Shown piece by piece: positions 39,852 through 51,270 of a stretch of 64,000 nt of DNA. How positions within the stretch are numbered: position 1 is the stretch's first letter; each line of letters starts with the position of its first letter. The position numbers and the translations under genes were made by a program. Below the pieces are notes generated by a model that saw only the letters and a program-made list of their open reading frames with translations, did no database searches and was not told the DNA's origin. The DNA lies in the NCBI RefSeq assembly GCF_030816485.1, contig NZ_JAUSYC010000001.1, positions 2,046,001 to 2,110,000 of the forward strand, read 5' to 3'. Source of the stretch: Arthrobacter sp. B1I2 (GTDB lineage: Bacteria; Actinomycetota; Actinomycetes; Actinomycetales; Micrococcaceae).

Positions 39852-40766
39852 CTACTGCGCTTTGTTGAAGGCGAAGTCAGAGATTGCACCGCTGCCTACG
39901 CCCCACTTGTCGAGGATCTCCTTGTACTTGCCGCTCTTGGCCAGCGACTCCATGCCGAGCTGGATGGCCTTCTCCAGTCCGGCGCCCTTCTTGAAGCCGA
40001 TGCTGACGGGGGAGACGTCTTTTTCGCCGAGCAGTTCGATCTGGCCGCCCTGCTTGATGGCGTAGCCCAGCGTGGGTCCGTCAATGTAGACGGCGTCAAT
40101 GCGGCCGGCAGTAAGTGCGAGGTTGGGGGCCTGCATATCGGGGTAAGTCATGGCTTCGATGGCCGGGTTGCCGGCGGCCGTGCACGCCTGGGACAGGGCT
40201 GGAAGACGCTTGAGGTCCTGGAAGGAACCCTTCAGCACGCCGACCCGCTTGCCGCAGAGGGTGTCCACCGTGACGTGCTGCGGGTTGCCCGGAGCCACAC
40301 CGATGCCGCTGCCTGACTGGTAGTAATCCACAAAATCAAGCACTTTCATGCGTTCGGTGGAGGGGGACATCTGGGAGATGGCCATGTCGAACTTCCCCGC
40401 GGCAATGCCGGGGATGATGCCGTCGAAGGGGCCGCTCTTGACCTCCGTCTTCAGGCCCAGTGTCTGCCCGAGGGCCATGGCAATTTCGGGGTCCACGCCG
40501 TGGGTGGTTGTTCCGTCCGGTGCCATGAAGTGCAGGGGCGGTGAGCTCTGGCTCATGGTCACGGTGAGGGTTCCCTTGTCCCGTGCGTCCTTGGGGAGGG
40601 CTGCCGCGGCGGCTTCGTCGACTTTGACGGCTTCCGCGGAGCTGGAGGATTTGGGGGCGTCGGACTGGGCCGAGCTGGTCGTCTCCGGATTGGAGCAGCC
40701 GGAGAGAAGCACGCTCGCCATGGATACTGCGGCGATGGTCACCAACATCGATCGAAACTGAATCAT
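39852..40766 (-). CDS. ABC transporter solute-binding lipoprotein
   Basis: 304 aa family 3 (polar amino acid type) periplasmic-binding-fold protein. Signal peptide with lipobox LLSGC, lipidated Cys24, then a Ser/Ala-rich linker. The ligand-binding domain shows HGVDPEIAMALGQTLGLK, FDGIIPGIAAGKFDMAISQMSPSTERMKVLDFVDYY and GKRVGVLKGS. First gene of the leftward import/oxidation unit and divergent from the GntR regulator. Confidence 0.93.
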   Translation of the reverse strand: MIQFRSMLVTIAAVSMASVLLSGCSNPETTSSAQSDAPKSSSSAEAVKVDEAAAAALPKDARDKGTLTVTMSQSSPPLHFMAPDGTTTHGVDPEIAMALGQTLGLKTEVKSGPFDGIIPGIAAGKFDMAISQMSPSTERMKVLDFVDYYQSGSGIGVAPGNPQHVTVDTLCGKRVGVLKGSFQDLKRLPALSQACTAAGNPAIEAMTYPDMQAPNLALTAGRIDAVYIDGPTLGYAIKQGGQIELLGEKDVSPVSIGFKKGAGLEKAIQLGMESLAKSGKYKEILDKWGVGSGAISDFAFNKAQ

Positions 40767-40866
40767 CTACACGCCTTCGGAGTTGGGGGAGGAGGGGTGG
40801 TAGGAGAGCTTCCAACCTTGGTGGGCAGCAGTAACTGTGTTACAGATCACTTTGCTGTCCTGTATC

Positions 40867-40879
40867 ATGTACCGTACAT
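40867..40879. promoter_or_regulatory. Putative GntR operator between divergent genes
   Basis: A perfect palindrome ATGTAC-C-GTACAT lies 100 bp upstream of the binding-protein gene and 115 bp upstream of the GntR gene. FadR/FCD-type GntR proteins typically bind short palindromes of this size, so it is a good candidate for control of both transcripts. Confidence 0.5.
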
Positions 40880-40994
40880 CATGCACGATTTTCCGCAAAC
40901 ACCTTTTTGCTTTGTCCGGTTTGTGACGGCGCGCTGATGAACGTCCTGCTGTTGGCCAATCCGATTGACCCGAAAATTCACATAGGATTCCGAA

Positions 40995-41696
40995 ATGAAC
41001 GCCGCTTCGCCCGAAGAAGAAGTCCTGATCCCCGGCCGGCCGATGCTGGTGGACCAGGTGTTCGAGGCCATCCTGTCCCTGTTGTTGGATGACAAGATCT
41101 CCACTGGGGCGCCGTTGAGCATCGATGGATTGGCTAAGCGCTTCAAGGTTTCCTCAACACCCGTGCGGGAGGCGCTGGCCCGCCTGGAAACGACCGGCAT
41201 GGTCCGGCGGGAAGCGTTGCGCGGCTACAAGGTTGCGCCGGAACCCACTGCCCGGGACATCGCCGCACTTCTGGCATCACGGCAGATTCTTGAACCTGCC
41301 TGCAGCAGTATTGCCGCGACCAACTCGACGGATGAGTTGGTGGTGGACCTGGAGGGGTTCCACCACGACCTTGAGGCGTCCCGACGGGGCGGGGATACCT
41401 TTGCCGGCTACCGCGCTTACTGGAAGGCCGATGAGAACTTTCACCGGCGGATCGTGGAGGCCACGGACAACGAGTTCCTCTTGCGTGCCTACGGTTCTAT
41501 CGAGGGCCACATCCAGCGCTTCCGGCTCATGGTGCACAACGACATGAGCGGCGACCACACGGTGCAGGAACACCACGCCATCATCGATGCCATCAAAGCC
41601 GGCGACCCGGACGCAGCCACGGCCGCCATGACGCGGCATATCGAGGGTATTAGGTCCCGCTCGCTGGGCCTTAAGAAGTTCGGTCAGTCACAGTAG
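40995..41696 (+). CDS. GntR-family regulator with FCD effector domain
   Basis: 233 aa. N-terminal winged helix (about residues 15-80) with SIDGLAKRFKVSSTPVREALARLETTGMV and the wing segment RGYKVAP. The C-terminal all-helical FCD domain (about 90-220) has metal-type histidines in NFHRRIVEATDNEFL and HHAIIDAI. AGGA lies about 8 bp before the ATG. It is divergent from the ABC importer/hydroxyacid dehydrogenase unit and probably represses it until an organic or hydroxy acid binds the FCD domain. Confidence 0.92.
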   Translation: MNAASPEEEVLIPGRPMLVDQVFEAILSLLLDDKISTGAPLSIDGLAKRFKVSSTPVREALARLETTGMVRREALRGYKVAPEPTARDIAALLASRQILEPACSSIAATNSTDELVVDLEGFHHDLEASRRGGDTFAGYRAYWKADENFHRRIVEATDNEFLLRAYGSIEGHIQRFRLMVHNDMSGDHTVQEHHAIIDAIKAGDPDAATAAMTRHIEGIRSRSLGLKKFGQSQ

Positions 41697-41702
41697 TACG
41701 TG

Positions 41703-42608
41703 CTACCCCAAAGTGACGGGTTTCCTGACCGTGGCGAGCAGGAGGACACCTGCCACAGCGGTGGCTCCGGACAGCAGGAACATGACGATCGCCAGCGGGG
41801 GTGCAGCGTCGGCTTCGCCCAGGATGGTGATCCCGATTGCGACGGCCACCAGCGGGTCGATGACGGTCAAACCGGCGACCACCAGCTCGGGGGTTCCCCG
41901 GGTGTGGGCGTTCTGGACCAGGAAGCTGCCGGCCAGGGCGGCAATGAGCAGCCCCGCCAGGCACGTCAGCGACAGCCACTCGAAGTCGCCCTGGAACAAA
42001 CGGGCGATGACGGTCTTGGCCAGGGCTGCCACGAACCCGAACAGGATCCCGGCTCCGGCGGTGAAGACCACGGCGCCCCAACGGTGCCGCCCCAACGCGA
42101 AGGCCACCGCCAGCACCACGAGAACCGCGGCAAGCACGATCAGAATGGTGACCAGGTGCCGGTCGCTGATCTCCACGTCTTCCGCGGACAGCGCCGCTAC
42201 CGCAACAAACACACCCACGCCGCCAACGCACAACGCCACCGCTGTGAGCGCCCGCCGCCCGGGGGACCGGCGGGTCATCCGCGCGGTGGCCAGCGTGGTG
42301 ACCACCAGGGCGATTGCGCCGATGGGCTGCACCACGATCAGGGGCGAGAACCGGAGGCTGGTGAGCTGGAGGAGGATGGCAGCGCCGAGCATCGCCGTCC
42401 CGGCCAGCCACACGGGCCTCCCCATCAGGGCCTGAAGGCGTCCACCACCCATGCTGCCCGCCGCGCGGCCGGCAGCAGCCGGCTGGTCCTCCACGGCCCG
42501 GTGCTGGAACAGTGTTCCCAGGGCGAGCAGGACGGCGCCGGCGGCGGCGATCGGAATCCCCAGCCAGTGATAGGACGTGAGTGCGGACACGGACGCAGCC
42601 TGGATCAT
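41703..42608 (-). CDS. DMT-superfamily membrane protein
   Basis: 301 aa with about nine to ten hydrophobic segments. The first is at residues 15-34 (LGIPIAAAGAVLLALGTLFQHRAV) and the block IVVQPIGAIALVVTTLATARMTRR resembles DMT/EamA-type transporters of the NIPA-like subgroup. GLTVIDPLVAVAIGITILGE near residue 250 is a conserved late repeat. Substrate unknown. It is convergent with the GntR gene, separated by 6 bp. Confidence 0.8.
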   Translation of the reverse strand: MIQAASVSALTSYHWLGIPIAAAGAVLLALGTLFQHRAVEDQPAAAGRAAGSMGGGRLQALMGRPVWLAGTAMLGAAILLQLTSLRFSPLIVVQPIGAIALVVTTLATARMTRRSPGRRALTAVALCVGGVGVFVAVAALSAEDVEISDRHLVTILIVLAAVLVVLAVAFALGRHRWGAVVFTAGAGILFGFVAALAKTVIARLFQGDFEWLSLTCLAGLLIAALAGSFLVQNAHTRGTPELVVAGLTVIDPLVAVAIGITILGEADAAPPLAIVMFLLSGATAVAGVLLLATVRKPVTLG

Positions 42609-42711
42609 GCTCAGACCTTACCCAACCCGGGGCCAGGCAACCCGCCCAGGGTGACCACCCGCCGTCGTACCTTTGCGCAGCCGGCCCGCTGAGCGGCCGC
42701 GCACCGCACGG

Positions 42712-42990
42712 CTAGATCAGGCTTGGCTGGCTGGCAAGGATATAGTCGACGGCGGCAGGCCCGGTCATGGACAGCTCGCGCCATTCTCTTCGCCAGCCAA
42801 TGTCCTGCTGCGTGTGTCCTTCCTGGGCGGCGGCTGCCGACAACGCCGTGGCGGAACCCGGTTCCTCAGCGTTGAGCACGCACCAGCTCAGGTACAACCC
42901 GTACAGGTCGTCTTCGCCCAGGCCCGGCTGCTTTCCGGGGACGGAGACGATGCATTCCGACAGGAAACGGCGGTAGTTTGAACCACTCAT
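42712..42990 (-). CDS. Conserved-looking hypothetical protein, 92 aa
   Basis: Short soluble, Trp-containing protein with SNYRRFLSECIV, DLYGLYLSWCVLNAEEP and IGWRREWRELS blocks. The YGLYLSWCxLN pattern recalls helical domains in primase/helicase accessory proteins, but the match is too weak to use. The reading frame has the codon pattern of its GC-rich neighbours. It is encoded alone, leftward, between the DMT gene and the repeat protein gene. Confidence 0.5.
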   Translation of the reverse strand: MSGSNYRRFLSECIVSVPGKQPGLGEDDLYGLYLSWCVLNAEEPGSATALSAAAAQEGHTQQDIGWRREWRELSMTGPAAVDYILASQPSLI

Positions 42991-43206
42991 GGATGAGCCC
43001 TTCAGCTGGGTATGGACTTACAGTGTCATTTGCTGTGCCCGCGACCGGACGCCGCTTACACACAGGCCATTCGTAGCCGGAATAGCCCCGGATGGGCCGC
43101 GGCCGTGTAATTTTTGGTACGCAAAACTGCTAATCATGCTTAGTATTGTTGGGCGCGGGCTGCCCGCTGGGGGCAGAGCACCCGCGCCGCACCGGAGGTC
43201 TCAAAC

Positions 43207-43875
43207 ATGGACAACGAAATGCGTCCCCTCACTGATGAAGAACTGATGTCGGAGCAGGCCACCGCCCTGCCGGACAAGGAAGTGGCGTCCGTTCTGGACC
43301 TGAACGCAGACCTGGACCTGGGCATCAACGCCGCAGCACCCATCGACCTGGCCGTCGCCGCCAACGCCAACGTGGCCGCACCCATCGACGCCGCGGCTTC
43401 GGCCAACATCCTCTCCTTCGGCTCCGACGCGCAGGCACTGTCCAGCCAGGACGCCACCATTGACCAGGGCATCACGGCGGACGCGAACGCCGACTCCACC
43501 CAGGACAGCGTGATCGGCCAGGCTGATGACACGGCTGACGCGGGCACCGACACCGGAACTGCGGACGGCACGGCAGGTGCGGTGACGGATCCCACGAGCA
43601 CCGGCGGGCTGACGGACGCGGCCGGCGTGCTGAACGGCAACCTGCTGAACGTCGACGTGAACCTGGACGCCGACGCCGCCATCGCCGCCCCGATCAACGG
43701 CGCCGTGGCCGCCAACGCCAACGTGGCGGCACCCATCGACGCAGCGGTCGCCGCCAACATCGGCTCCATCGACAGCCAGGCGTACGCCATCTCGGACCAG
43801 AGCGCCACCATCTCGCAGCACATCGACGGCGAGGCCAACGCCACCGCCGACCAGCAGTCCGACCTGCAGCAGTAA
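43207..43875 (+). CDS. Internally repeated Ala/Asp-rich protein with RiPP-like leader, putative substrate of the adjacent M50 protease
   Basis: 222 aa, very acidic, no Cys, no Trp and no classical signal peptide. The N-terminus (MRPLTDEELMSEQATALPDKE, residues 5-25) looks like a leader of ribosomal peptide precursors. Two long repeats follow: about 28-100 and 149-216. Each holds AAPI(D/N).AVAANANVAAPIDA then a S(D/S)QSATI- or SSQDATI-type segment, joined by a Thr/Gly/Ala/Asp linker (about 101-148). GGAGG lies 7 bp upstream of the ATG. The membrane M50 protease gene begins 6 bp downstream. I recognise this as a recurring uncharacterised actinobacterial pairing; no function is established. Confidence 0.8.
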   Translation: MDNEMRPLTDEELMSEQATALPDKEVASVLDLNADLDLGINAAAPIDLAVAANANVAAPIDAAASANILSFGSDAQALSSQDATIDQGITADANADSTQDSVIGQADDTADAGTDTGTADGTAGAVTDPTSTGGLTDAAGVLNGNLLNVDVNLDADAAIAAPINGAVAANANVAAPIDAAVAANIGSIDSQAYAISDQSATISQHIDGEANATADQQSDLQQ

Positions 43876-43881
43876 GAAAAG

Positions 43882-46335
43882 ATGACCCAAACCCACGGCG
43901 GCCCGCCTCCCGAGGCGGGCCCGCCGTCGTCACGCGCCACCCTTGCCCAGGACCCGCCTACACACACCATTACGACGGCGGGAGCCCACCTTCCCGCCCG
44001 GGCCGACGGTGTGCAGCTGCTCGGCACGGCCGAGGGGTCCGGCTACCGTGAGCCGCCCGCCCTGGTGCGCCGCGCCGACGGCCAGACCCTGCAGCTGACC
44101 CGCCTCCTGTACCTGGTGCTGGAAGCCGCCGACGGGACGCAGGACCTGGAGGGCGTCGCCCGGCACGCCAGTGCCGGATCCGGGCGGCTGGTCAGCGCGG
44201 ACAACATCCGCACCCTGATGGACTCGCAGCTGCTGCCCATGGGCCTGCTCCGCCTCGCTGACGGCACCCAGCCGGAAGTGAAGAAGGCCAACCCCTTGTT
44301 GGGCCTGCGCTTCCGATACGTCGTGTCCGATCCCGAACGCACCCGCAGGATCACGGCACCGTTCGCCGTGCTCTTCAACCCGCTGATCGTGGTGGCCGTG
44401 ACGGCCGCGTTCCTGGCGGCATGCTGGTGGCTGCTCATGGTCAAGGGCCTCGGCTCCGCGACGCACGAGGCCTTCGAGCAGCCTGCGCTCCTGCTGCTGA
44501 TCCTCGCCGTCACCATCCTGTCCGCCGGCTTCCACGAATTCGGCCACGCCGCCGCCACCCGCAAGGGCGGGGCAACACCCGGGGCCATGGGCGCCGGGCT
44601 GTACCTGCTGTGGCCGGCGTTCTTCACCGACGTCACCGACTCCTACCGGCTGGGCCGCGGCGGCAGGATCCGCACGGACCTGGGCGGGCTGTACTTCAAC
44701 GCCATCGTGGCGGTGGCCATCATGGGGCTGTGGTGGGTCACCGGCTTTGACGCGCTCCTGCTGGTGGTGGTCACCCAGATCCTGCAGATGGTCCGCCAAC
44801 TCATCCCGCTGGTGAAGTACGACGGCTACCACATCCTGGCCGATGCCACCGGCGTGCCCGACCTCTTCCAGCGGATCAAGCCCACCCTCCTGGGGCTCCT
44901 TCCCTGGCGCTGGGGCAACCCCGAAAGCAAGGTGCTGAAGCCCTGGGCGCGGGCGGTGGTGACCGTGTGGGTCCTCGTCACCGTACCCGTGCTGCTGTTC
45001 AGCATGGTGATGATGGTGCTGTCCCTGCCGCGGCTGCTGGCCACCGGCTGGGCAAGCGCCGGCAAGCAGCAGGAGATGCTGGCCGCGAGCCTGTCCGCCG
45101 GGGATTTCGTGGGCGTGGCCGTGCGGGCGCTGGCGATCGTTGTGGTGGCGGTGCCCATGCTGGGCCTCCTGTACATCGTGGTCCGGCTCCTGCGGCAGCT
45201 GGTCACAGGCCTGTGGCGGAAGACCCAGGGCAAGCTTGTCCAGCGGACCGTCGCCATGGGCGCCGTGGCGGCCCTGCTCGCGGGGCTGGCCTGGGCATGG
45301 TGGCCCGACGGCGGGACGTACCGTCCGGTGCAGGCGTACGAACGCGGGACGCTGGGTGACGCCACCCGCGCGGTCCTTCCCCAGCGCAAGGCCGGGGTGT
45401 TGCGGCAGGGCGCCACCGGCCGAACCGTCGCCCTGTGGCCGGCCGGTGCCACGAAGCCCACGCGGGACAACCCGCAGTTGAGCATGGTGCTGGTGCCGGT
45501 GGAGAAGTCCGGTTCCGGCGCGTCTTCAACCGGCGGCGGGTCATCTGCTGCGTCCGGTGCTGCGGCGCCGTCCTGGGTGTTCCCGTTCGACCGGCCCGCT
45601 GCCCCTGCCGGTGACGGAAACCAGGCGCTCGCCGTCAACACCACGGACGGCTCGGTCCAGTACAGTGTGGCGTTCGCGCTAGTGTGGGCCGAGGACGGAG
45701 AGCCCGTGACCACGACCAACGAGGCTTACGCGTTTGCCAGCTGTACCGGCTGCGCCGCCGTGGCCGTGGGCTTCCAGGTGGTCCTGGTGGTGGGCCAGAC
45801 CGACGTGATCGTCCCGCAGAACCTCTCCGCGGCGGCCAACTACAACTGCCTGGACTGCCTCGCCTACGCGTTGGCGAGCCAGCTGGTCCTCACCCTCGAC
45901 GGGCCGCTGGACGCAGCGAGCAGGCAACAGCTTGAGGCCCTGTGGGCACAGATCGCCGAATACGGCCGGAACATCCAGAACGTGCCGCTCTCCGAAATCC
46001 AGGCCACTCTCAACGGATACAAGGAGCAGATCACGGCCATCATCAAGGGCAGCTCCGGGTCGGCGTCCACCGCGCCCACATCCCCGGCATCCGCTGACCC
46101 CGCCCCGAGCCCCACCTCGTCCCTGGCCCAAGCCGAGCCCACGGGCACGGCCCCGGCAACCGCCCCCGCCGGTGTTCCCAACCCGGCCCCGACTCAAGGA
46201 GCAACCGCCCCGGCCGGCCCATATGTGGAAGGCGGGGAGCCGACGTCGTCCGTTGACTATGCCACGCCGGCACCCACTGCTGATTCCGGGACGGGGGAGA
46301 CCCTGGCGCCGGTTCCCACCTCCAGCGCCGGCTAA
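43882..46335 (+). CDS. Membrane M50 metalloprotease with PqqD-like N-terminus and paired CxxC motifs
   Basis: 817 aa. Residues about 55-125 (PPALVRRADGQTLQLTRLLYLVLEAADG and the following helices) look like a PqqD-type precursor-recognition domain. The core has membrane segments around 162-188 and 200-216, zinc motif HEFGH (218-222) and the third-ligand block KYDGYHILAD (312-321), then four or more further segments up to about 475. The outer C-terminal domain carries CTGC (621-624) and CLDC (656-659) in a conserved-looking beta domain, then a Pro/Ala/Thr-rich tail from about 705. The start is uncertain: ATG 43882 lacks a good ribosome site and a hairpin covers codons 5-16; a GTG near 44011 would still keep the PqqD-like domain. 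Confidence 0.82.
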   Translation: MTQTHGGPPPEAGPPSSRATLAQDPPTHTITTAGAHLPARADGVQLLGTAEGSGYREPPALVRRADGQTLQLTRLLYLVLEAADGTQDLEGVARHASAGSGRLVSADNIRTLMDSQLLPMGLLRLADGTQPEVKKANPLLGLRFRYVVSDPERTRRITAPFAVLFNPLIVVAVTAAFLAACWWLLMVKGLGSATHEAFEQPALLLLILAVTILSAGFHEFGHAAATRKGGATPGAMGAGLYLLWPAFFTDVTDSYRLGRGGRIRTDLGGLYFNAIVAVAIMGLWWVTGFDALLLVVVTQILQMVRQLIPLVKYDGYHILADATGVPDLFQRIKPTLLGLLPWRWGNPESKVLKPWARAVVTVWVLVTVPVLLFSMVMMVLSLPRLLATGWASAGKQQEMLAASLSAGDFVGVAVRALAIVVVAVPMLGLLYIVVRLLRQLVTGLWRKTQGKLVQRTVAMGAVAALLAGLAWAWWPDGGTYRPVQAYERGTLGDATRAVLPQRKAGVLRQGATGRTVALWPAGATKPTRDNPQLSMVLVPVEKSGSGASSTGGGSSAASGAAAPSWVFPFDRPAAPAGDGNQALAVNTTDGSVQYSVAFALVWAEDGEPVTTTNEAYAFASCTGCAAVAVGFQVVLVVGQTDVIVPQNLSAAANYNCLDCLAYALASQLVLTLDGPLDAASRQQLEALWAQIAEYGRNIQNVPLSEIQATLNGYKEQITAIIKGSSGSASTAPTSPASADPAPSPTSSLAQAEPTGTAPATAPAGVPNPAPTQGATAPAGPYVEGGEPTSSVDYATPAPTADSGTGETLAPVPTSSAG
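43895..43927 (+). promoter_or_regulatory. Strong hairpin at the start of the protease gene (possible attenuator)
   Basis: ACGGCGGCCCGCCTC pairs with GAGGCGGGCCCGCCGT around a CC loop with a single bulged G. It lies 20 bp after the stop of the repeat-protein gene and inside the beginning of the M50 frame. It could lower protease expression relative to its presumed substrate or protect the upstream mRNA. No T-run follows. Confidence 0.55.
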
Positions 46336-46678
46336 CCCGGCATTGCTCCGCCTCCCAAACCGCCTTCCGGGATGGTCTGGACAATGATGCGGGTGGCGAG
46401 GATTGTGATAACTGCGTCCCCTCTTCCGTGCGCTTCCACCAGTGCACGACTGCGAAGGCGCCTGGAATCAGAATTGAGTCATGCGACGCACCGTTTTGCG
46501 GTGCCTGTGCGGCCGGTGGGCCCTGAAGTTTTGAAGGGTCCGCTGCCGCAGCATGGACAGCCGGGGATCCTTGCTCCCAAAGGGTGACCAGTTTGCAGCC
46601 CTCCCAACGGGAGGCGGACCGGCCACGCTGAGCGTCGGCCTTCACAGGCTGAGCATCGTTCAAAAAGAGAGCATTCCG
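46336..46678. other. Intergenic stretch, no gene recognised
   Basis: About 340 bp between the M50 protease gene and the cupredoxin gene. Open frames here are without ribosome sites or recognisable domains. It should contain the promoter of the downstream gene, but I cannot point to one. Confidence 0.45.
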
Positions 46679-47644
46679 ATGCAACACAGTCCGGGAATCC
46701 CGAGGGGATTCCACAAAATTCCGATCATTTTTGCGGCCGCTATTGCCCTTGCCCTGTCCGTGGCATGGGCCGGACCGGCAGGGGCGTCCTCCTGGGGCCC
46801 CCGTTCCTGGACGGTCCAAGTTGGTTCCGAGTCATGGGACCAGGAAATCCAGGGGATGGCCTTCCTCCCCACTGACATCACGGTCAACGAAGAGGACAGC
46901 ATCACCTGGGAGGCGAACTCCGCCGAGATCCACACGGTGACGTTCCTGGCCTCGGGCCAGTCGCTGGAGCCCTTCAACCCGGGGGCCCCTGACCAGCTGA
47001 ATAAGCGGGGCGGCAGCTGGTACGACGGGCAGTCGTACTACAACTCCGGCCTTCTGGCGAACGTACACGTTCCGGGATTCCCCACGGTGAAGAGCTACAA
47101 GTTGAAGTTTCCGCACGAAGGTCACTTCACCTACTACTGCCTGGTTCACGGCATGGCCATGAAGGGCACCGTCCACGTCCAGCAGCGAGGGTCCGCGTAC
47201 CCGCATACGCAGCGGGACTACGACCGCTCGTCAGCGGTCCAGGAGGAAGCCATTCTTAAGGATGGAATGAAACTTGACGACGCTCTGGCCAAGCATGCGA
47301 GCAGCCGCAAAGTCTTCGCCGGCGACGACGATGGCATCGCCATGGTCATGCGCTTCGTCCAGCCGACGGTGAGAGTCCACGTGGGCGATACGGTCCATTT
47401 CATCAATCCAGGAATGGGCGCACCGCACACAGTCACCTTTGGCGACGAACCGGCGGACATTTTCGCCCCGAGCGGTGATCCCAAGGATTACCGCGGTGGC
47501 GACCTCAACTCCGGGATAATCCCCGCCGATGCAGGCCCGCATTCCACGTTCGACGTCACGTTCAAGACGGCGGGAACGTTCAGGTACATCTGCGCACTCC
47601 ATGACTACATGGGCATGGTGGGCAAGGTGATCGTGGTCGACTAA
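46679..47644 (+). CDS. Secreted protein with two cupredoxin domains
   Basis: 321 aa. Signal peptide at residues 1-37 (hydrophobic IIFAAAIALALSVAWA, then GPAGASS). Domain 1 (about 45-180) has copper ligands in EIHTVTF and the Cys-His-Met cluster YYCLVHGMAMKG. Domain 2 (about 215-320) has APHTVTF and YICALHDYMGMVG. Both keep the type-1 copper His/Cys/His/Met set, so this is a tandem blue-copper protein rather than a multicopper oxidase. It could carry electrons or bind copper outside the membrane. The ATG at 46679 is preferred over an upstream in-frame ATG because it begins the signal peptide. A terminator follows. Confidence 0.88.
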   Translation: MQHSPGIPRGFHKIPIIFAAAIALALSVAWAGPAGASSWGPRSWTVQVGSESWDQEIQGMAFLPTDITVNEEDSITWEANSAEIHTVTFLASGQSLEPFNPGAPDQLNKRGGSWYDGQSYYNSGLLANVHVPGFPTVKSYKLKFPHEGHFTYYCLVHGMAMKGTVHVQQRGSAYPHTQRDYDRSSAVQEEAILKDGMKLDDALAKHASSRKVFAGDDDGIAMVMRFVQPTVRVHVGDTVHFINPGMGAPHTVTFGDEPADIFAPSGDPKDYRGGDLNSGIIPADAGPHSTFDVTFKTAGTFRYICALHDYMGMVGKVIVVD

Positions 47645-47661
47645 CGCCGGCCCCTCACGAA

Positions 47662-47696
47662 GCGGCCCCTCAACGACCTGATCGATGAGGGGCCGC
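47662..47696 (+). terminator. Terminator of the cupredoxin gene
   Basis: A perfect 11-bp stem GCGGCCCCTCA/TGAGGGGCCGC with a 13-nt loop, 18 bp after the stop, followed by GTTCGCGGG with no real T-run. It also lies just beyond the end of the convergent SRPBCC gene. Confidence 0.7.
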
Positions 47697-47727
47697 GTTC
47701 GCGGGACAGAGTCGGGCTCTGTTCTTG

Positions 47728-48297
47728 TCAGGAAGGGTCTTTACGTCCTGGGCGGTGCCGGCCTGCAAAAGTGGGAGGCGCAGGCTGGGGGATGCTGGAA
47801 TGATCCCCGCCCGGCCGCCGTCGCCGTAATTCCAGGGCGAGGGCTTCCTGCCCCCGGGCCATTGCCCAGCGGTGGTTCGCTGAAAAGGCGGGTTTGAGGA
47901 GCCAACTCAGCCGACGCAGGAGTGGTTTGGACGCGCTGACCCGCCAATCGTAGATGACAACCGTTTCTGGTCCGTCCTCTTTAAAGGTCCAGCGTCCGGT
48001 GCCGTTCAGGTCTCCATGCGCGGAGAGAGCCAACCCGTGTTCTGTGACGGGCTCAGTGACGGTGAGCTGCCACTTGAGTGTGTACGGCAGCCAGCCCTTG
48101 GTGTGGAGGAAGAAGGTTTGGCCGGTGCCATCCGAGTTGCCCGGATCCAGCCGCTCAACACGCAAGTACACAGAGGGCCACCAGCGGGCCAGCGTTCCGG
48201 CATCACCCAGAATGTCCACAACCTCGCGCGGGGTTCCGGCGACACGCCAGACAGTTAGAAATTCATAGTCGTTTCTACTTTTGGAATTGCCGCCCAT
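47728..48297 (-). CDS. SRPBCC-fold (START/polyketide cyclase-like) protein
   Basis: 189 aa. The first 145 residues have the typical layout: a first strand (YEFLTVWRVAGTPREVVDIL), a Trp-rich helix LARWWPSVYLRV, and late strands GRWTFKEDG and TVVIYDWRV, then a long C-terminal helix ANHRWAMARGQEALALEL. A disordered basic/proline tail follows. Such proteins bind hydrophobic ligands in an internal cavity; ligand unknown. The start at 48297 (MGGNSKS) is preferred to an ATG four codons upstream. Confidence 0.75.
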   Translation of the reverse strand: MGGNSKSRNDYEFLTVWRVAGTPREVVDILGDAGTLARWWPSVYLRVERLDPGNSDGTGQTFFLHTKGWLPYTLKWQLTVTEPVTEHGLALSAHGDLNGTGRWTFKEDGPETVVIYDWRVSASKPLLRRLSWLLKPAFSANHRWAMARGQEALALELRRRRPGGDHSSIPQPAPPTFAGRHRPGRKDPS

Positions 48298-48652
48298 TGC
48301 TGCCTCCACGCAAGGATTATGGAGCCACAGTACGTAGGGCGTTGCCCGTAATCAACGTCCCGAGCACCATCCGGTCCCTTGCTGAAGCACACCCCATGGC
48401 CCCGGCCCCGACTAGGGGGAATACCTGGGCGGCCGGCATATCCAGGGGGCCAGAAGGGGTAGGCGGATGGCGCCAGATGGGTGCGATCTACCCTTATGGC
48501 GCACTGGTGGCCCGTGTACGTTTGCTACTGCCGGAGAGTCCCGATCTCGCAGCATTCGCATTTTGGGAATCGGCTGGGAACCCAGTAGCGCCCGTACTGG
48601 ACTTGGGCAGGCCGCCCTTCAATTTCCCTTTGCCGAATCCATGGAGACACCC

Positions 48653-48865
48653 GTGTCTAAGCGCATTATTCCCGTCCTTGCTGCCGTTTTTGCGGCACTA
48701 TTCCTCTCGGCAGCTCCAGCCCCGGCCGCCACGGCCTCCGACAAGGACGCGATCACCGCGTACGCCAACTGTCCCCTGGAGCGCATCGGCACCCAGTTGG
48801 TTCGTTGCGACAACCTCACGGGCGCGGGGGTGGCTGCTCCTTTCTGGATACCTGAGCAGACGTAG
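48653..48865 (+). CDS. Small secreted protein with two cysteines
   Basis: 70 aa from a GTG at 48653 with GGAG about 8 bp upstream. Signal peptide MSKRIIPVLAAVFAALFLSA with cleavage near APAPAATA (about residue 28). The mature peptide of about 42 residues has Cys in ANCPLE and VRCDNL, likely one disulfide, and ends GVAAPFWIPEQT. No family recognised; it stands alone between divergent and convergent neighbours. Confidence 0.55.
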   Translation: MSKRIIPVLAAVFAALFLSAAPAPAATASDKDAITAYANCPLERIGTQLVRCDNLTGAGVAAPFWIPEQT

Positions 48866-49116
48866 CCTCTTTGAGGAGCGGGGCCCTGATGCTGCGGGGC
48901 TTACAACCTCGCGGATAGTAAGTAGACTTAGCAATGGACGTTGCGTCCAGCAGTGCGGCGCTGCGTTCCACGACCTTCGGGGTGCGTAAGGCGCTTCCGA
49001 ACGCTTCACCTCGTGCGGCGGGTCCACCTGCTCCGGGTAGGTTCCACAACCTTCAGCTCTGGTTCAGCCTCGCTGTCTGCCGGGTCTACTCACGCAAGTC
49101 CACCTAAACAGCCGAA

Positions 49117-49149
49117 CGGCTCCCCTCCGACCTGGGCGAAGGGGAGCCG
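49117..49149 (-). terminator. Hairpin after the surface-protein operon
   Basis: CGGCTCCCCT pairs with AGGGGAGCCG across a 13-nt loop, 19 bp beyond the stop of the leftward 700-residue protein. On the minus strand it is followed by TTCGGCTGTTT. The 250 bp between it and the small secreted protein (48866-49116) show no gene. Confidence 0.6.
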
Positions 49150-49167
49150 GTTGCTCCTGGGATGGTG

Positions 49168-51270
49168 TTAGAAGCCCGATGTGGCGGTTGCGGTAAAGGT
49201 GATGATGGGTTTGACGAAGGGGTTGCCTGCCAGGTCAGTGAGCGTCGTCGCCGGGGAGTAGGAGGGTTTTCCATAGGTGACACCTTGCAGAGTGCTCCCC
49301 GTGGCGGAATTTCCGAGTTTGATCGTTAATGTCTTGGCTGCGGAGTTCCAGATCAGGGTTGAAGAGCCGCCGGACCCGTTGGTGGGCCCAAACGTGGCCG
49401 TTGCTCCGACATAATTGCTACCCAGAGAAATTGTGCCGATGCTTAGCCCTGTGCAGTCGGTCGTTGCAAAGCTGAGCGAGTCATCGGACCCGTTGTCCGA
49501 CAGCGTGGCGGTCCCATTGAACGTGGTGGCGGTGCTGGTGCTGGAGCAGAACTTGGCCGGATCCAGTGATTTGGAGAATTGAATGGTTATTGTGTCGCCC
49601 TTGTCCGCTTGATACTGCTTAGGACCACCGTCCGCCATAGTGATGCCTGTTACTACAGGCGCCACTGTGTCCTTGGTGGTCGTACCGGCAGCGCTCGCCG
49701 TTCCACTGTTACCTGCCGCGTCGGTAGTGGCGGCTGTATAGGTCAGGGTGCCGTCTTTCAGAGTGGAGATGTCTATCGTCGTCGACCAGGTTGTGCCGGT
49801 GGGGGTGACCTGGCTGGTCACCGTCTTGAACACAGAATCCCTGACCGTGACGTTGACGACGGTTCCCGTCTCCGTGGTGCCGCTGACCTTGCTGCTAGTA
49901 CTGGCGTACATCGGTGCGGTAATGCTGAGGACCGGTGCCACAGTGTCCTTGATGTCTGAGGTAGTGGCGGCCGCGCTGGTGTTCCCCGCGGCGTCTTTGA
50001 CCGTCACGGTGTAGGTCACCGTCTCATCTTTGAGCGAGTCGAGATTGAGGTTCAGCGACCAGCTGCCGTCATTAGCCGTTGCCGTGCCTGTCACGGGTAA
50101 GGCCGATCCGGGGCTCGTTGCAGTAACAGTCAATGAGGCCCCGGCTTCTGCGCTTCCGGAAACAGGAACTGCAGCAACATTGCCGATGTTCACGTACCCC
50201 GGCACGCTCAAGCCCGTTGCCGCGGCCGGCGCCACTGTGTCTTTTGTGCTGGTAGCCGTCTTCGCAGCGCCCGTGTTGCCTGCGGGATCAGTTGCGGTGG
50301 CCGTGTAAGTCACGGTGCCTTGATTGAGGCTCGTCAGGTCGGGGCTGGCAGACCAGGTTCCCGTGCCGGAAGCGGTGACAGTAAACGTTACCGAATGGGC
50401 AGCGCCCGCGTCAGTGGCAGTAAGGGTGACTTTGGCCCCTGCTTCCGCCGTTCCGGTGACGGGTACGGCGGCAACGTTGGTGGGATTCACAAAGACCGGA
50501 GCCGCAAGCGAAGGCGCGTACGGCGCCTGGGTGTCGATCCACACACTCTGGTTCTGAGCAGCCCCGGAGTTGCCCGCGTTATCAGTGGCGAAGTAGGAGA
50601 CGGTGTGGGTCCAGTCGCCCGTGACGGGAACGTTCGCGACGGCGCCGCTCACGATCTGCTTTGCGCCGCCGTCGACCGCGTAGCTGATGGCGGCCACGCC
50701 TGAGCCGCCGGCACCGTCGTCGGCCGTGATGGTCACGGTGACGGGGCTGGTGTTGTTCCAGCCGGCCGCGTTCGGGGTTGGCGAGAGACTGGATACTGTG
50801 GCCACCGGGGCGGTGGAGTCGCTGCTGACGCCGCTGCTGCGTGGGCTTTCCGCGCCGGTCCACAGGGCGATGGTGGGCGTGACGGTGTAGTACCAGATAC
50901 CGCCGGGGACGCTCTGCTCGGTGCAGGTCAGCGTGGTCACGGTCCCGGCGCAACCGCCCGTGGCCGTCGTTCCGGTGCCACCCGTGGCTGCTGCGTACCT
51001 GGTGACGGTGTACCCGGTGGCTGCACGGCCGTTGGCGGTGGTGCCGGCTGCCCAGCTGACGCTGAGCGAGGCACCGTTGGCGGTGACGGACGGCTTGGAG
51101 CCCGGCGACAGCGCATCCGCAGCGGCGGCCGCGTTGTTGCTGCTGGTGGTGGAGGCCCAGAAGCCGTAGGCCGCGGTGGTTGTGCCGAGCAGGAGCAGGA
51201 GTGCGGTGACAATCCAGGGGAGCCGGCGGGAAGTGCCGCGGATCAGCAGGGTGCGTATGGCGAGGCTCAT
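49168..51270 (-). CDS. Large secreted protein with repeated Ig-like domains
   Basis: 700 aa. Signal or anchor segment at residues 19-42 ending in AAYGFWASTTSSN, which resembles a SipW-type cleavage region. The remainder is a string of bacterial Ig-like/fibronectin-like units. One unit has SWAAGTTANGRAATGYTVTRY. At least three units have D.VAP near their start and TATDPAGN, VKDAAGN or TTDAAGN near their end. The C-terminal unit has TDLAGNPFV. Few charges and very high Thr/Ser/Ala/Gly content fit a surface adhesin or fibre. Overlaps the stop of the next gene by 4 bp, so it is the last gene of a leftward unit. Confidence 0.85.
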   Translation of the reverse strand: MSLAIRTLLIRGTSRRLPWIVTALLLLLGTTTAAYGFWASTTSSNNAAAAADALSPGSKPSVTANGASLSVSWAAGTTANGRAATGYTVTRYAAATGGTGTTATGGCAGTVTTLTCTEQSVPGGIWYYTVTPTIALWTGAESPRSSGVSSDSTAPVATVSSLSPTPNAAGWNNTSPVTVTITADDGAGGSGVAAISYAVDGGAKQIVSGAVANVPVTGDWTHTVSYFATDNAGNSGAAQNQSVWIDTQAPYAPSLAAPVFVNPTNVAAVPVTGTAEAGAKVTLTATDAGAAHSVTFTVTASGTGTWSASPDLTSLNQGTVTYTATATDPAGNTGAAKTATSTKDTVAPAAATGLSVPGYVNIGNVAAVPVSGSAEAGASLTVTATSPGSALPVTGTATANDGSWSLNLNLDSLKDETVTYTVTVKDAAGNTSAAATTSDIKDTVAPVLSITAPMYASTSSKVSGTTETGTVVNVTVRDSVFKTVTSQVTPTGTTWSTTIDISTLKDGTLTYTAATTDAAGNSGTASAAGTTTKDTVAPVVTGITMADGGPKQYQADKGDTITIQFSKSLDPAKFCSSTSTATTFNGTATLSDNGSDDSLSFATTDCTGLSIGTISLGSNYVGATATFGPTNGSGGSSTLIWNSAAKTLTIKLGNSATGSTLQGVTYGKPSYSPATTLTDLAGNPFVKPIITFTATATSGF

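Follow-up and report, generated by a model that had tools for sequence, protein, structure and literature searches.

Can a leader-bearing protein be recognized, cut and delivered by a single membrane protease, with no modifying enzyme or exporter encoded beside it? This question is raised by a pair of genes in Arthrobacter sp. B1I2, on a 4.3-Mb contig (NZ_JAUSYC010000001.1) of which we analyzed a stretch of 64,000 nucleotides (positions 2,046,001 to 2,110,000 of the forward strand; hereafter the window, to which coordinates refer unless another locus is named). An earlier note on this DNA had described an acidic protein of 222 residues with a leader and two long repeats, followed 6 bp later by an 817-residue membrane protease with HEFGH and DGYH zinc motifs and a recognition domain, and had read the two as a processing or secretion pair. 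Both genes are as described: the precursor is an open reading frame (ORF) at 43207-43875 with two modules identical at 42 of 76 positions, and the M50-type protease is an ORF at 43882-46335, both on the + strand. Our data also support the reading as a processing pair, with cleavage and export as steps that we infer. We consider it fairly probable that the two genes are a minimal unit by which an unmodified modular protein is processed under the guidance of its leader and delivered to the cell surface.

The pairing itself recurs across actinobacteria, a point raised in the earlier note and borne out here. Among 198 genomes of the genus, we found the precursor in 103, a close protease (E<=1.7e-150) in 102 and both together in 102. 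In the exception (G073) the precursor hit is partial, and the assembly is 83% complete and split into 410 contigs. The loci that we named individually are the best 80 of 298 relatives from one scan, and 79 of these carry both genes. A script placed the precursor directly upstream in 78 of the 80, including one cut by the contig start (L203) and one reduced to a 50-aa piece (L236); in L233 the precursor lies behind an extra gene for the protease's C-terminal domain (CTD), and in L193 it is missing upstream of 4001, where the 5' end of the protease is also lost. Further loci with a fused CTD and usable upstream DNA had a precursor in 18 of 18 cases, after L140 and L151 had been set aside for incomplete proteases. 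The named and unnamed sets overlap, and their co-occurrence counts are not independent. In L236 (3788-6340), HEFGR replaces HEFGH beside the 50-aa precursor piece, a case of either joint decay or sequence errors.

Within the window, a ribosome-binding site (GGAGG, 43194-43198, + strand) lies 8 nt 5' of the first ATG of the precursor. Among 34 named relatives, with the first possible start taken, the intergenic gap ranges from -4 to 47 nt around a median of 7 nt, and because it is so short, precursor and protease look like one operon. Ratios of nonsynonymous to synonymous substitution rates of ~0.07-0.19 for the precursor (four comparisons with relatives) and ~0.15-0.20 for the protease (three comparisons) indicate that both genes are under purifying selection.

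The precursor is organized as a leader and a core, with a putative cleavage between them. The leader (residues 1-29, 43207-43293), which contains LPDKE and forms a helix at residues 10-17 in a weak model, is conserved across species and common to short leader-core peptides. It is followed by module 1 (residues 30-105, 43294-43521), a variable D/T/A/G-rich linker delimited by an alignment of 20 relatives (residues 106-146, 43522-43644) and module 2 (residues 147-222, 43645-43872), all on the + strand. Aligned without gaps, the two modules score 178, a value far above the best of 1000 shuffles (51). Both contain a 14-aa sub-repeat, seen in the DNA as four 40-nt copies of repeat family D1. Asp and Glu total 36 in the protein; its only basic residues, R6 and K24, belong to the leader, and it lacks Cys. 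This composition is shared widely: Cys is absent after the LPxKE motif in 77 of 77 named precursors, and Lys plus Arg after it number zero in 41, one in 35 and two in a single case. The precursor matched nothing in Pfam or NCBIfam at E up to 1, or in PHROGs or PADLOC at E 0.001. Precursors from mycobacterial records (L169-L192) carry a G/S/T-rich C-terminal extension behind module 2.

Short peptides with "LPxRE" leaders, whose genes neighbour split forms of the protease, are members of the same family as the precursor. Next to proteases without a fused CTD lie genes of ~70 aa, each equivalent to one leader plus one module. Seven such loci (within L152-L161, of which L152 and L157 stop at the protease) contain 21 of these short peptides, none with Lys or Arg after the leader motif, while peptides of L162-L167 have LLPGREAL-like leaders. 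Sixteen of the 198 genus genomes (L082-L097) have a second, paralogous RRE-M50 protease class with 43-48% identity, accompanied by a pair of small LPxRETL-type peptides (31 in all over the 16 loci); in two that we read through (L083 and L087), a MinD/ParA-like ATPase C-terminus with PKGGAHKTT replaces the CTD. By BLAST, peptides of the second class and those of the split lineages fall into one cluster (26 loci). In a tree built from 45 proteases, all 28 rows with a fused CTD are united in a single clade (100 by the Shimodaira-Hasegawa-like approximate likelihood ratio test, SH-aLRT), so that fusion of protease with CTD and the two-module precursor map to the same branch. This suggests that short peptides preceded the two-module form, in a tree with thinly sampled split lineages, a polytomy at the root, SH-aLRT as its only support measure, 7 of 52 rows (six split, one daptide) dropped as HExxH variants missed by a motif filter, and L166, a member of a different family, labelled as part of the g36 group.

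The protease combines three parts and a tail, all on the + strand. Residues 35-128 (43984-44265) model as a winged helix of the PqqD type, resembling a RiPP recognition element (RRE; RiPP, ribosomally synthesized and post-translationally modified peptide), with structural matches to the RREs of TbiB1 (5v1v) and TruD (4bs9). The best solved match was TbiB1 with its leader. In contrast to those elements, the predicted domain is fused ahead of a membrane protease, and its binding of a leader is putative. The membrane core (residues 151-472, 44332-45297), delimited by hydropathy and the model, matches the site-2 protease S2P (3b4r) and the SpoIVFB:pro-sigma-K complex (8vjl), and shares with them the HExxH motif (HEFGH, residues 218-222, 44533-44547) and the DG motif (DGYH, residues 314-317, 44821-44832). 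In the alignment of relatives, positions 218, 219, 314, 315 and 317 are invariant and position 222 is His in 41 of 42. The window protein is a membrane protein with zinc motifs of the M50/site-2 type and putative activity; it differs from S2P and SpoIVFB in its added RRE-like part and CTD. It matched no Pfam family at E up to 1, hence not Peptidase_M50, which the relatives L098 and L099 do match, and Foldseek with the whole protease gave no match at E<=0.001. A T/S/P-rich tail (residues 726-817, 46057-46332) is variable in alignments and is modelled at a predicted local distance difference test score (pLDDT) below 50.

Among curated families, the protease is related to those that mature daptides and epipeptides, without being a member of either by the curated cut-offs. 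Its residues 59-362 match the daptide intramembrane metalloprotease NF041824, likewise M50-type, at 104.4 bits (cut-off 300), and it matches the YydH/LiaK epipeptide maturation metalloprotease NF058609, also a membrane protease for a leader-bearing peptide, at 34.2 bits (cut-off 225). Compared with the daptide proteases, it adds a probably outer CTD and has a repeat substrate that looks unmodified; compared with the epipeptide system, no radical-SAM gene was found beside it. M50 proteins of four loci in the same genus (L098-L101) do pass the daptide cut-off, at 365-382 bits.

The CTD (residues 484-722, 45331-46047, + strand), defined by alignment with separate CTD genes, contains CxxC at 621-624 and 656-659, with Cys invariant in 42 rows. 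One of its segments (residues 645-673, 45814-45900) resembles the precursor module and carries CxxC at the place where peptide modules carry SxxS. We scored this likeness with a fixed gapless matrix of 14 peptide modules against control ORFs (8346, after removal of 223 with an LPxRE-like motif from 8569) and 2000 shuffles. The segment reached 20.5 bits, a value exceeded by one control ORF (a precursor truncated where its contig stops; 16.0 was the next score) and by none of the shuffles, whose maximum was 16.3. The best offset fell on the same segment in 31 of 31 CTDs, with the other 30 scoring -3.5 to 18.7 bits, while an iterated matrix drifted and gave the window segment only 6.8 bits. The resemblance is statistical, a lead rather than proof of homology. 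Separate CTD genes of split lineages begin with sequences that, judged by eye, are signal-like, and for this reason the CTD is probably extracellular. The region models poorly in part and has no meaningful PDB sequence match; its homologues are present in 36 of 394 genomes of the class, belonging to 19 of the 137 genera. In two loci (L072:5847-6641; L233 from 4001), the precursor is immediately preceded by an additional, free-standing CTD gene whose start is signal-like.

Taken together, these parts suggest a route by which the precursor leader would dock on the cytoplasmic RRE-like domain and the intramembrane M50 site would cut near the junction of leader and core. The acidic core, nearly without Lys or Arg, would then reach the outside of the cell, where it could meet the protease's own outer domain with its core-like segment. 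Under the positive-inside rule, basic-poor segments suit the part of a protein that crosses the membrane, and the core, being poor in basic residues, suits that part. That the modules are strongly conserved speaks for a role in structure or at the surface and against a toxin that evolves fast. Several results weigh against this proposal. The structural score does not separate the RRE-like fold from other winged helices, which score nearly as high, and a sequence search of the PDB gave no RRE for protease residues 40-150; the recognition domain of the earlier note is a candidate RRE, modelled as a PqqD/RRE-like fold. A basic-free core is not general, since six of eight peptide cores in L162-L168 hold four or five Lys/Arg, mostly ahead of the module. 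The match of CTD and module was post hoc, the idea having arisen from viewing the sequences, and a profile comparison of CTD with precursor picked the same place at a probability of only 5.5% (E 0.007). Hydropathy also marks CTD residues 616-646 as membrane-like, and no exporter was identified for the putative export.

Other explanations account for parts of the same evidence. The pair works like a RiPP leader/RRE/protease unit, and this logic, with the kinship to daptide and epipeptide proteases, would fit a modified bacteriocin or signal whose modifying enzymes are encoded elsewhere in the genome. We nevertheless leave it outside the RiPPs, because it shows no sign of modification. The earlier note had seen no radical-SAM, cyclase or ABC exporter gene, and a Pfam scan of seven neighbouring ORFs (39852-51270) likewise listed none of these families; two of the seven matched nothing in Pfam. 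Modifying enzymes or exporters do not recur next to the pair across genera, given imperfect gene calls in which the precursor or the protease was sometimes overlooked, and distal enzymes were not searched for. The uniform absence of Cys and the strong conservation of the modules, unlike that of fast-evolving bacteriocins, make a modified peptide improbable. Still less credible, and in our judgement very improbable, is a switch based on regulated intramembrane proteolysis, in which the repeat protein would be a regulator freed by cleavage. The matches of the core to S2P and to SpoIVFB in complex with pro-sigma-K would favour it, but the precursor has no known regulator domain in Pfam, its relatives are short peptides in arrays, and an apparently outer domain of the protease resembles the substrate.

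A surface polymer would extend the preferred reading of a processing and delivery unit rather than replace it. Curli combine a repeat subunit with an anchored nucleator module of similar sequence, and by analogy only, processed modules might stack or polymerize on a CTD acting as membrane-anchored nucleator. Consistent with this, the modules are regular, rich in Q/A/N and strongly conserved, strands are modelled in them (E74-90, E93-104, E191-207 and E210-221), and the CTD has its module-like segment. The precursor model is weak, however (pLDDT 53.9), a PDB sequence search gave one chance-level match (E 2.1), and a Pfam scan of 36 precursors did not list any curlin family at E up to 10; the secretion parts also differ from those of curli. 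We therefore regard polymerization as possible but rather doubtful. Equally tentative, and on the unlikely side, is the broader picture of an Actinomycetota surface-assembly system, in which one membrane protein would recognize, cut and deliver its substrate and then template assembly through a module-derived outer domain (CxxC for SxxS), with split lineages (single-module arrays plus a separate secreted CTD) as the unfused form from which one fusion gave the two-gene form.

Apart from the pair, the clusters spanning at least four genera were antisense over it (16 loci in nine genera; six loci in four genera), and we took these for gene-caller artefacts rather than real genes. Six loci in three genera have a member of a 238-aa family in their flanks, and two-genus clusters were also present. 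A phage or defence gene was rejected, since neither protein matches PHROGs or PADLOC at E 0.001. Downstream in the window, a gene at 46553-47644 encodes two plastocyanin-like copper-binding stretches, and a minus-strand gene at 49168-51270 encodes a 700-aa protein with bacterial Ig-like repeats.

What is new here is a precursor family that includes short LPxRE-leader peptides, the split CTD genes and a CTD segment resembling the module, in a pair that is common (298 relatives in one scan) yet has no Pfam family. If our reading is correct, a single polypeptide would recognize its substrate, cut it within the membrane and supply an outer domain as its partner, and RRE-guided recognition would serve beyond peptide modification, in the processing and display of a conserved surface protein. 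With only two genes, the system can be used to test whether a site-2 protease is the exit route for a leader-bearing protein.
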